Part shown: piece after piece, positions 31,779 through 56,622 of the stretch
How the letters are laid out: the number at the start of each line of letters is the position of its first letter
How positions within the stretch are numbered: position 1 is the first letter of the stretch
Origin: Nitrospira tepida
GTDB lineage: Bacteria > Nitrospirota > Nitrospiria > Nitrospirales > Nitrospiraceae
Direction: 5' to 3'
NCBI RefSeq assembly: GCF_947241125.1
Contig: NZ_OX365700.1
Location: 4,498,461-4,562,460, forward strand
DNA: 64,000 nt
Made by a program: the position numbers and the translations under genes
The notes under the pieces: generated by a model
What the model saw: the letters and a program-made list of their open reading frames with translations, nothing else
What the model was told of the DNA's origin: nothing
The model's database searches: none

Positions 31779-32223
31779 CGAAGGCCCCGTCAAGCGTCAT
31801 GCGTCAACCGACAAGCGTCAGAACGTAAGGAAACGGAATGAGAAGGAGCCGCGCTTTTCCCAACGGATGACGAATGACGATTGGCGGTCTAGCGTAGACG
31901 AGATCGACGGATGATCTGTTAGGACTGGATCACATCGCGGTTGGCTGGAGCACACAAAAAAACCGGCGGAGGTTGGTTCGGAGAGCTCGGCTTTCACTTG
32001 TGGGATCTTGGAGAGGCTTTAGGCTTCCCGACCTTGCCGGGCCTGCACACCACCTCTACACCTGACCCCTCTTCATCTCGCTGTACCTCTCACCACCCCT
32101 CCGCCTACTCATAGGTAAGTCCTTCTGCCGGCGATTCAAGCCCTGAAGTCCCTTCTAACGGAATCCCATTTATTGTCGGACTCACCGATTGATTCTCGTG
32201 AAAAAGTGGCTAATCAGTCTCCA
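31779..32223. other. Intergenic region with no gene
   Basis: No credible gene in either direction. The first ~130 bases are rich in CGTCA/TGACG pentamers like other spacers in this window. A possible promoter precedes the candidate RNA: TTGATT (32189-32194), 16 bases, TAATCA (32211-32216). Confidence 0.6.
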
Positions 32224-32510
32224 GAGAGAAAGGGGGCGAGGAACGCCTAAGAAGTCAAAGGTCGGCATCCTGGGTTGGTGACCCGCTCTTACGCAGTGCG
32301 AGGGGAGAGGATGTCGCTCCTGTGGGTGTTGCGGGGTTGAGATTCGAGGGTACGCGCCATGAGTTCGGTGCCAGTAGGCACGACCGTCTGATGCGAGTCC
32401 GATGAGGGTGGCGCGGGACGATCTGGGACGGTTGGGTTGCTGGAGGGTCGTCCGAACCAATCCCGGCTAGTGGGCAGGCCCGGTATCCAGTAAGAGCGGG
32501 CCGTTTTTTT
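32224..32510 (+). ncRNA. Candidate structured non-coding RNA (unclassified)
   Basis: No protein-like frame spans this stretch, but it holds nested complementary segments. CCCGCTCTTAC (32282-32292) is an exact complement of GTAAGAGCGGG (32490-32500), closing a ~220-base domain. Inside are CGCGCCAT (32353-32360) against GTGGCGCG (32408-32415, one wobble), hairpin GTGCC/GGCAC (32368-32381) and GGACGA/TCGTCC (32416-32453). The 3' end coincides with an intrinsic terminator that shares bases with the closing stem. I find no signature of RNase P, tmRNA, SRP or 6S RNA. The 5' end is a guess from a weak promoter. Confidence 0.45.
32477..32510 (+). terminator. Rho-independent terminator
   Basis: GGCCCG (32477-32482) pairs with CGGGCC (32497-32502), followed by G and seven T residues. 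It ends the candidate RNA. Its right arm overlaps the long-range stem, so the two structures exclude each other. Confidence 0.75.
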
Positions 32511-32566: not shown

Positions 32567-33295
32567 TCAGAACAGGCCGGCGATGCCGGTGCTGATCTTC
32601 TCCTGAACGATCGGGGTCGCTTCAGGAACATCCAGATCCTTCTGCAACACGTGGCCGACCATCCTCATCTGCTGGACCTTGGGAGCGGCACCGCCCGTTG
32701 CCGGCATTCCGGCCGGTCGGCCGAGCGGCTTGCCCAGCCTGCGGTCGGTGATCGGGACATCGGCCGCGCAGAGATAGGTTACCCCTTCTTCCGGAGGCGG
32801 CTCCATCCCAAACCCGCCTCGGCCGCTCATGGCCATGCGCATGATCGCGTTCATATCCATGCCGCCCATCATGGCGGACAGGTCTTCTCCCTTCGTCACG
32901 GAGGTCACGGCGCTCCCGCCGGTGCTGATTCCGGAACCGAATCCGCTTTGTGCCACGGTTTCCGGCTTCACCCCTTGGCCGGACTTGTGGCAATAGGCCA
33001 CCTTGGCTTGGATCCAGTAGTTGGCCTGCTCGGGATCGGCGGCAAGCTGATAGCCTTTGGCGGCAAGCTTCTGGCCGACGACCCCCAGATTGACCTGCTG
33101 GTTTTCAGAGACGTTGCGCGGCTGGAGATAGACAGTGCGGCTCGTGCTCGGCTCAAGGAAGATCGTGTTGCTGTTCACGAGTCCCGAGCGGATGACGTTC
33201 GAGCAGCCGACGGTCAGAACGGACAAGATGATGAGAAAGAATGGGCTTATGAAACGAAACACGTGAAACGCAAGACGATCAGACGAGTCGGCCAT
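32567..33295 (-). CDS. TraT-like outer-membrane lipoprotein (copy 1)
   Basis: A 242-residue protein with a lipobox (ILSVLTVGC, lipidated Cys about residue 31) and the TraT/YoaF-like N-terminal pattern FLEPSTSRTVYLQPRNVSENQ and KLAAKGYQLAADPEQANYWIQAKV. The Met/Gly-rich middle and the C-terminal part with TYLCAADVPITDRRLG match its neighbour, 233 residues, in layout. TraT of F plasmids blocks complement and conjugation; chromosomal relatives have unknown roles. The ATG overlaps the upstream stop (TGATG). Confidence 0.82.
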   Translation of the reverse strand: MADSSDRLAFHVFRFISPFFLIILSVLTVGCSNVIRSGLVNSNTIFLEPSTSRTVYLQPRNVSENQQVNLGVVGQKLAAKGYQLAADPEQANYWIQAKVAYCHKSGQGVKPETVAQSGFGSGISTGGSAVTSVTKGEDLSAMMGGMDMNAIMRMAMSGRGGFGMEPPPEEGVTYLCAADVPITDRRLGKPLGRPAGMPATGGAAPKVQQMRMVGHVLQKDLDVPEATPIVQEKISTGIAGLF

Positions 33296-33996
33296 CAGAA
33301 GTTTCCCGCCACCGCCGCGCTGAGTTTCTGTTGGAGCAGCGATGTGGCCTCCTCTTCTTTCATTTTCTTCTGATGCACGCTGGCCGCAAGTCGCGTTTGA
33401 TAGACCCCTGACGGCTCACCGGAAGCGGCCACATGGCCGGAGACCGCGGAGCGATCGGCAATCTGCAGATCGGTCACGCAGGCATAGATGACTTCGTCGG
33501 TGCCCGCTCGACCGGACGGCCCTCCGAACAGGCTGCCCACCGCGCTGCCGATGCCCTCGATCGCCCCGAGTCCCATGGAGGCCGCCGCGCCCGCCATGGC
33601 GCCCTGCGGCCCCGCCATGCTCGCCAAGCCGGCTAGGCTGTTGAGGCCGCCCATCATCGAGGATCCAAAGCCGGTTCCGTAGCCGCTGGCGACCATCGCC
33701 TCCACCGACAACTCCGGTTTCGTGACGTTGCAGTAGACGATGTTGGCGAGCACGAGATAGTTGGCCGCATCCGGATCTTGGACGACTTGATAACCCTTCG
33801 CCGCCAATCGAGCGCCAAGGTCGGTGAGCGTCGCCGCCTGATTGTCCGACGAATTGCGCGCCTGGACGAAGACGGTGTGCTGGATGCTCGGTTGGAGGAA
33901 GAAGGTGCTGCTGGAAATCAGATCGGTATCTTTGATGTTGCCGGCACAGGCAGGCAGAAAGCTAGCCAGCAAAAGCCACCACGCACGGTATCGCAT
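33295..33996 (-). CDS. TraT-like outer-membrane lipoprotein (copy 2)
   Basis: A 233-residue lipoprotein precursor from ATG 33996 (GAGG ribosome site): lipobox LLASFLPAC, then FFLQPSIQHTVFVQARNSSDNQ and RLAAKGYQVVQDPDAANYLVLANI, the same TraT-family architecture as the next gene. A long glycine/alanine/methionine-rich segment (about 120-170) resembles a membrane-inserting hairpin. The pair looks like an old tandem duplication expressed from one transcript. Confidence 0.82.
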   Translation of the reverse strand: MRYRAWWLLLASFLPACAGNIKDTDLISSSTFFLQPSIQHTVFVQARNSSDNQAATLTDLGARLAAKGYQVVQDPDAANYLVLANIVYCNVTKPELSVEAMVASGYGTGFGSSMMGGLNSLAGLASMAGPQGAMAGAAASMGLGAIEGIGSAVGSLFGGPSGRAGTDEVIYACVTDLQIADRSAVSGHVAASGEPSGVYQTRLAASVHQKKMKEEEATSLLQQKLSAAVAGNF

Positions 33997-34092
33997 GACG
34001 CCTCGATGTAGGCGGCGAAGAAGTCGGCCCTGCATTCTAGGTCATGAGTTACCACGCTGACAACAGGCCGGAAGAACCCCGTCTCCCTGTTC

Positions 34093-51713: not shown

Positions 51714-51754
51714 ACACTCCTCCCCCATGCTCGAAGGGCTGAGCAGATCTGTCC

Positions 51755-51980
51755 GTCGGCTGGGTCTCCTGACTCGCGGATCGTCGCGATCCCGCGCCTT
51801 CCCGGCTTGGACGTCATTCGTCATTGGTCATTCGTCATTCGCGGGAAGTGAGAGATCTTCCCCATTCGATTGACGAGTGACGGCTGACGGTTGACGCCTA
51901 AACCAGTGGCTCTTGTGCGGGACCACTCCTCGCTTACAGTGGCGGCACCGTGAGGGCTTTGCACCCTCTTCCCCGTCCCC
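51755..51980 (-). promoter_or_regulatory. Cobalamin riboswitch upstream of btuB
   Basis: Read on the minus strand it has the conserved elements in order: GGGGAAGAGGGTGC (5' side), GGTGCCGCCACTGTAA (B12 box core), CCGGGAAGGCGCGG and GAGTCAGGAGACCCAGCC (3' side). The variable arm between the second and third elements is expanded by TGACGA-type repeats (51810-51900). It ends about 40 bases before the btuB ATG. No terminator with U tract is seen, so control of translation initiation is more likely. It probably controls the whole btuB-cbiZ operon. Confidence 0.9.
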
Positions 51981-52044
51981 GACGACTTCTTCCTGACCCC
52001 CTCCTTGAAGATTGACCCAGTGACCGTACCCCTATCTTTGACGT

Positions 52045-55225: not shown

Positions 55226-55307
55226 CAAAGCAATAGACCCGGAGGACTGCACCCTGCTTCTTCATCCTCACCGCATTCCCCACCCCACGGGGGAACCCTG
55301 GTCTGGT

Positions 55308-55452
55308 ATACCGGTTAGGTCTTCTGACTTCTGGATCACCCGACTGCCCGCGTCTTCCCATTCGCCTGTGGCGAACAGTGACATCGTGCGGGAGTCGTCC
55401 CCAGTTACAGCGGCGGGACCGTGAGGGAGTCGCACCCTCTTCCCTTGAACCG
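55308..55452 (-). promoter_or_regulatory. Cobalamin riboswitch upstream of btuF
   Basis: Minus-strand order: AAGGGAAGAGGGTGCGACTC (5' side), GGTCCCGCCGCTGTAACTGG (B12 box core, GCTGT instead of ACTGT), AATGGGAAGACGCGGGC, and AGTCAGAAGACCTAACC (3' side). All parts of the class I fold are present. Its 5' half and upstream flank are repeated in two decayed copies further right (56457 and 58317). Confidence 0.9.
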
Positions 55453-55718
55453 GACGCTATGTCGGCCGGGACTCTAGACGGGCAGGAAGGGGGTTGTCAA
55501 GGTCGGGAGATCCGAGCCAGACGAACGGGTGTTGGAGTTCCTTCAGCGGGAGGAAGCGACCGCTAGAGAAAGAGGGCAACCCATCTTGGGGTCCTCTGGA
55601 TGTCCGCCAGCAGCGCGAGAAGCATACAGTTTTTATGGTGAACCTTGATTAGACGCCCATGGAAGGCGCATACTATTGACACCCAGGCTACTTCTGTTAC
55701 AGAGAAGGATGGCAGACC

Positions 55719-56456: not shown

Positions 56457-56622
56457 TGAACCTCTGACTCACGGGGCACCGCCCGCCCGCGATGAACAGT
56501 GACAATGTGCGGGAGTCGTCCCCAGTTACAGCGGCGGGACCGTGAGGGAGTCGCACCCTCTTTCTTTGAACGGGACGCTATGTCGGCCGGAACTCCTAGT
56601 CGGGCGGGAAGGGGGCTGTCAA
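56457..56622 (-). repeat. Decayed copy of the btuF cobalamin riboswitch (copy 2)
   Basis: From 56495 to 56622 it is nearly the same as 55371-55502, including the B12 box core (GGTCCCGCCGCTGTAACTGG). The 3' part has lost the GGGAAGACGCGGG element, leaving GTGAGTCAGAGGTTC. Downstream of it on the minus strand lies the convergent vapC gene, so it has no gene to regulate. Similarity with copy 3 reaches further left, to about 56388. Confidence 0.8.

Follow-up and report, generated by a model that had tools for sequence, protein, structure and literature searches.

A probable new family of structured RNAs closed by a permanent stem in Nitrospira and related genomes

The findings in this study suggested that positions 32224-32510 (+ strand) of the analysed window, a 64,000-nt stretch of DNA from Nitrospira tepida, very probably encode a new, stand-alone family of structured RNA with a permanent closing stem. 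As judged from the sequence comparisons, the family appeared to be a lineage-specific structured non-coding RNA confined, within the genomes searched, to the GTDB family of Nitrospira. As a stand-alone gene, it would give an RNA of about 230 nt (core) to about 290 nt (with the 5' leader), folded into a closing stem of 11-12 bp (P1), short helices arranged as a rod, and a terminal junction with P6, P7, and P9 (Table 1). Transcription would begin near 32220, driven by a conserved promoter-like element, and would end at the U-tract behind the closing stem; instead of being one of two switch states, this stem would act as the stem of the terminator. With less certainty, the RNA would act in trans during stress or slow growth, and its Shine-Dalgarno-like 5' end would let it contact 30S ribosomal subunits.

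A candidate new structured RNA had been proposed at this place by a sequence-only reading, and the proposal was strongly backed by homologues with extensive compensatory change and by the lack of an Rfam match. No Rfam 15 family exceeded its cut-off in 32224-32510, and none was plausible on the + strand; a permissive search returned just weak minus-strand matches near the stretch. The accompanying statement that no known RNA lies here held at gathering and permissive thresholds alike. The stated lack of a credible gene was borne out as well: the lengths of the homologues spanned all three frames, 24 of the 47 had no fully open frame on either strand, and the structured core contained no conserved reading frame. 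In the open literature, no paper on Nitrospira small RNAs was found.

Table 1. Features of the RNA and its surroundings, in window coordinates
Feature	Position	Strand	Remarks
Promoter-like element	32189..32212	+	TTGATT 32189-32194, GTGGCTA 32206-32212; predicted from sequence
5' leader	32220..32279	+	Between promoter-like element and closing stem; varies between subtypes; start presumably near 32220
Shine-Dalgarno-like segment	32229..32238	+	AAAGGGGGCG; consensus AGGAGGUG, complementary to common 16S 3' end; degenerate here
P1 closing stem, 5' arm	32282..32292	+	CCCGCTCTTAC; conserved, with compensatory changes in homologues
P1 closing stem, 3' arm	32490..32500	+	GTAAGAGCGGG; exact 11-bp complement of 5' arm
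Rod helices P2-P5, 5' sides	32313-32315, 32321-32323, 32334-32336, 32343-32346	+	Both-side changes in all pairs
Rod helices P5-P2, 3' sides	32453-32456, 32461-32463, 32474-32476, 32482-32484	+	Both-side changes in all pairs
P6 arm, terminal junction	32353-32358 / 32410-32415	+	CGCGCC / GGCGCG; 99.3% paired, compensatory changes
P7 hairpin	32368..32381	+	GUGCC-AGUA-GGCAC; near-invariant family hallmark; invariant columns in 47 sequences
P9 arm	32417-32423 / 32446-32452	+	GACGATC / GGTCGTC; both-side changes in 7/7 pairs
U-tract behind P1	32504..32510	+	Putative terminator and 3' end; U-rich tail in most copies
Second 6S-like RNA	31956..32105 (core match 32000-32069)	-	Rfam RF00013, 34.7 bits, E 2.8e-5
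TraT-family outer-membrane proteins, two adjacent	32567-34035	-	PF05818; 3' of the RNA, opposite strand

The exact 11-base complement that had drawn attention to the stretch was confirmed in the window copy. By itself, the match is weak evidence, because, when 298 stretches of 287 bases were drawn at random from the window, 16 (5%) held an exact inverted repeat of at least 11 bases, and because the fold energy of the + strand was unremarkable against shuffles (z-score -0.83); single-sequence folding of the minus strand was even slightly better. It is the homologues that decide. In an alignment of 47 sequences with a mean pairwise identity of 62%, P1 was 99.1% paired over 12 pairs, 9 of which had changed on both sides. 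The separately counted closing stem, a fairer test than that of the whole structure because the stem had been named from one sequence, comprised 14 pairs with 94% of cells paired and double changes in 11 pairs. None of 500 shuffles reached it on four of five measures and two did so on the fifth, while its covariation score lay above all 500.

The sequence-only reading also held that the stem encloses several further helices, and an alignment of homologues, the check proposed with it, revealed compensatory changes in the inner helices as well as in the closing stem. The consensus comprised 45 pairs, of which 34, distributed across eight of the nine helices, had changed on both sides. Pairing extended to 95.6% of cells, and 218 cells had changed on both sides, a count that fell to 67 for shuffled alignments and to 50 or fewer when the pairing partners were slid; these controls somewhat favour the structure, as it was predicted from the same alignment, and related sequences inflate the counts. 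The effect size and the spread of the double changes over the helices would therefore seem to be the persuasive part of this comparative evidence. The folded strand is indicated to be the + strand, as G-U cells outnumbered A-C cells (203 vs. 30), in pairs that were picked by the + strand prediction. A chance complement in GC-rich intergenic DNA, which the frequency of such repeats in the window and the ordinary fold energy might have suggested, has a negligible probability and appears already refuted by this covariation, which extends over many genera. We rejected a reading of GGTTCGAGG as tRNA-like or Y-RNA-like, since its bases belong to P5 and their pairs show compensatory changes there.

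The distribution of the family was followed in several ways. Of the 175 genomes in the GTDB family, 47 were matched by BLAST with the stretch, and the core pattern GGTGCCANTAGGCACG, which represents the P7 hallmark of the family, was present in 45 (reversed control, 0). A longer form of the hallmark, scanned against 84,980 species, yielded 34 stretches, all in records titled Nitrospira, Nitrospirae, Nitrospiraceae, or Nitrospirota, Candidatus Nitrospira defluvii, a species with two copies of the RNA, among them. A covariance model placed the RNA in 97 of the 175 genomes and in 18 of 22 genera, usually in one or two copies per genome and in five at most. The RNA is not universal in the family, because about 45% of the genomes had no match, some of them being incomplete or strongly diverged and the filters being strict. 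Every convincing match in a sample of 396 genomes from the phylum fell inside the family of the window; one weak partial match outside it was judged to be due to chance. These searches thus show a genuine RNA that is specific to the lineage and occurs as paralogues. A repeated or mobile element was likewise rejected on the copy number, there being few copies per genome rather than many near-identical ones.

Among 44 copies with longer flanks, the genes on either side varied and frequently converged on the RNA, which argues that it is not a leader. Hsp20, Pribosyltran, Usp, NMD3-domain, RlaP, and malic enzyme were the neighbour families found across the loci. Three subtypes (A, B, and C) were distinguished by leader and neighbourhood, not by tree. 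Subtype C is divergent from a cluster of Hsp20, phosphoribosyltransferase, NMD3-domain protein, Usp, and cytochrome genes, and several of its copies converge with an RlaP-family nucleotidyltransferase gene. In L169, L182, L183, L184, and their relatives, this conserved stress cluster, whose cytochrome is a cytochrome c, had on its flanks the genes of a 2-oxoacid dehydrogenase and of RlaP, an RNA repair nucleotidyltransferase. Copies of subtype B have a class-III aminotransferase gene (presumably hemL-like) on one side and a Staphylococcal-nuclease-family gene on the other. Subtype A is the mixed remainder: malic enzyme, Usp, or MlaC genes are close to many of its copies, and about ten copies are accompanied by a second 6S-like RNA, mostly within a few hundred bases.

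The window copy was grouped with subtype A because of such a 6S-like neighbour, which the sequence-only reading had missed. This neighbour is divergent from the new RNA at a distance of about 0.1-0.2 kb and had a fold z-score of -3.05 against shuffles. Its score was below the RF00013 gathering threshold of 46.4, with the main 6S RNAs of these genomes scoring mostly about 30-48; the other 6S-like match of the genome was far off (G000:C1:2437146-2437220). In two loci (L203 and L199), the 6S-like RNA was situated upstream of the new RNA on the same strand, and as it lies just upstream in L203, a joint transcript is possible there. The repeated location beside Hsp20, phosphoribosyltransferase, and Usp genes and beside a second 6S-like RNA is what points to a possible role in trans during stress or slow growth, although location is no proof of function.

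Nearly all copies of subtypes A and C carried TTGATT followed by a TGnTTA-like box at the same place, and subtype B had TTGACA at that position, so that nearly all copies showed one of these hexamers with a second box behind it; a consensus promoter scan of the window copy found no promoter. A variant without the TTGATT element and without the U-tract behind the closing stem was observed in L203, L028, L029, L032, L038, and L062. Ahead of the closing stem, by 24-51 nt, nearly all copies had a segment resembling the consensus in Table 1. When it was paired with a generic 16S 3' end, its best duplex averaged -16.2 kcal/mol over 44 copies, compared with -9.9 for shuffled sequences and -8.8 for other stretches. 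The degenerate segment of the window copy (AGGGGGCG) gave a duplex of -13.0, which alone was not significant. The predicted mean unpaired values of the segment were 0.35 (A), 0.32 (B), and 0.57 (C), indicating that it is partly paired and moderately accessible. That the RNA works partly through some form of contact with the ribosome is put forward tentatively, as a rather doubtful proposition.

In subtype B, the segment was followed by an ATG and by the conserved ATGACGCC(A/G)CCGGA(C/T)AAG, a single copy differing by one more change; the spacer ahead of the ATG was not conserved. The resulting mini-ORF (L175, L192, L181, L172, L193, and L179) has 12 codons, reads MTPPDK...PLL in most copies, and ends inside the closing stem, with a stop codon where the P1 arm ends. 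In this subtype, the Shine-Dalgarno-like segment would probably start translation of the 12-codon peptide. A search of nine genomes with an 18-mer from the subtype B leader (at most two mismatches, both strands) returned the RNA itself and one two-mismatch match in genome G018; no further copies or complementary sites were found in the nine genomes at this threshold. The RNA's own copies were told apart by position and not by strand, as draft contigs are arbitrarily oriented.

These features raise the question of whether the RNA could be a dual-function or peptide-coding small RNA, in which ribosomes truly bind the 5' segment and the main task of the RNA is to encode a short peptide. Subtype B offers evidence of this kind in its codons ATG-ACG-CCR-CCG-GAY-AAG, whose conservation sets in sharply at the ATG, in its silent changes (CCA/CCG, GAC/GAT), and in the position of its stop codon, where the P1 arm ends. 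However, the ATG of subtype B stands far from the segment (11-13 nt beyond the 8-mer), one change (GGC) is not silent, and subtypes A and C, the window copy included, have no consistent start codon behind the segment, so that translation cannot be the general role; we consider this reading unlikely. A regulatory small RNA that pairs with mRNAs, or that binds a protein such as CsrA via GGA motifs (AAGGAGGUG) and the P7 hairpin, is a rival for the mode of action and not for the identity of the RNA. The near-invariance of P7, its stem included, suggests recognition by a protein, and subtype-specific leaders would suit different targets, but the GGA motifs are few, as CsrB-type RNAs have more of them; such a role is possible, although we would not assume it.

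The sequence-only reading had further proposed that the right arm of the closing stem also belongs to a terminator hairpin, so that the RNA could switch between terminated and read-through forms. Such a hairpin (GGCCCG 32477-32482 / CGGGCC 32497-32502), with its right arm shared, could indeed be drawn in the window copy, but across the homologues its pairs formed in 70.8% of cells, and none of the measures, covariation included, stood clearly out from the shuffles. When two mutually exclusive conserved helices were sought, as expected of a terminator riboswitch or attenuator, just the closing stem was conserved and covarying. The switch found no support for the window copy, because the competing hairpin is unconserved, the closing stem itself meets the U-tract in most copies, and the downstream gene is on the opposite strand. 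A conserved same-direction downstream gene was absent for subtypes A and C, whose neighbours vary and often converge. A conditional terminator, in which the 3' arm would pair either with the distant 5' arm or in the local hairpin and so control read-through, is therefore highly improbable overall and largely refuted for subtypes A and C. It is conceivable in subtype B only, where ribosomes translating the mini-ORF would enter the 5' arm and might open the stem, and where a same-direction gene, of the SNase family, came next in five of the six copies examined. The reading that we prefer, a permanent closing stem that together with the U-tract is likely to form the terminator, accords with the conserved stem and with the U-rich tail that most copies have behind it.

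The RNA is like 6S RNA (RF00013) in standing alone, in its rod-like shape, in having a U-tract and a closing stem at its terminus, in sharing a neighbourhood with it, and in that both are presumably RNAs of stress or stationary phase. It differs in its helices, its conserved P7, and its 16S-complementary 5' end, and RF00013 gave no match on 32224-32510, the 6S match being that of the neighbour on the minus strand. A more specific and quite speculative reading, to which we assign a low probability, is that the RNA would be to translation what 6S RNA, encoded in the same stress neighbourhood, is to transcription: mostly non-coding, it would dock on free 30S subunits via its 5' complement to the 16S 3' end and would hold or tune them in stress. 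SgrS and RNAIII are dual-function small RNAs, and the new RNA is similar to them in being structured and in having a segment predicted to bind ribosomes, to which subtype B may add a short peptide; in contrast, most of its copies, the window copy too, have no consistent ORF, and a long-range stem closes the RNA. Translational or peptide attenuators are resembled by subtype B, where an upstream mini-ORF overlaps one arm of a terminator-like stem, whereas most copies, that of the window among them, do not lead into a gene of the same direction and the competing hairpin is unconserved. With its ORF-less 16S-complementary head, its mini-ORF subtype, and its 6S neighbourhood, the family would be unusual among structured bacterial non-coding RNAs.

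Nitrospira are responsible for much of the world's nitrite oxidation and include complete ammonia oxidisers. A conserved RNA family of several subtypes, located by stress genes and a 6S-like RNA, provides an entry point to regulation in these slow-growing bacteria, and contact with the ribosome, if true, would be unusual as a means by which an RNA influences translation. Elsewhere in the window, three cobalamin riboswitch matches were observed within about 5 kb on the minus strand (51741-52016, 55296-55485, and 56463-56560).
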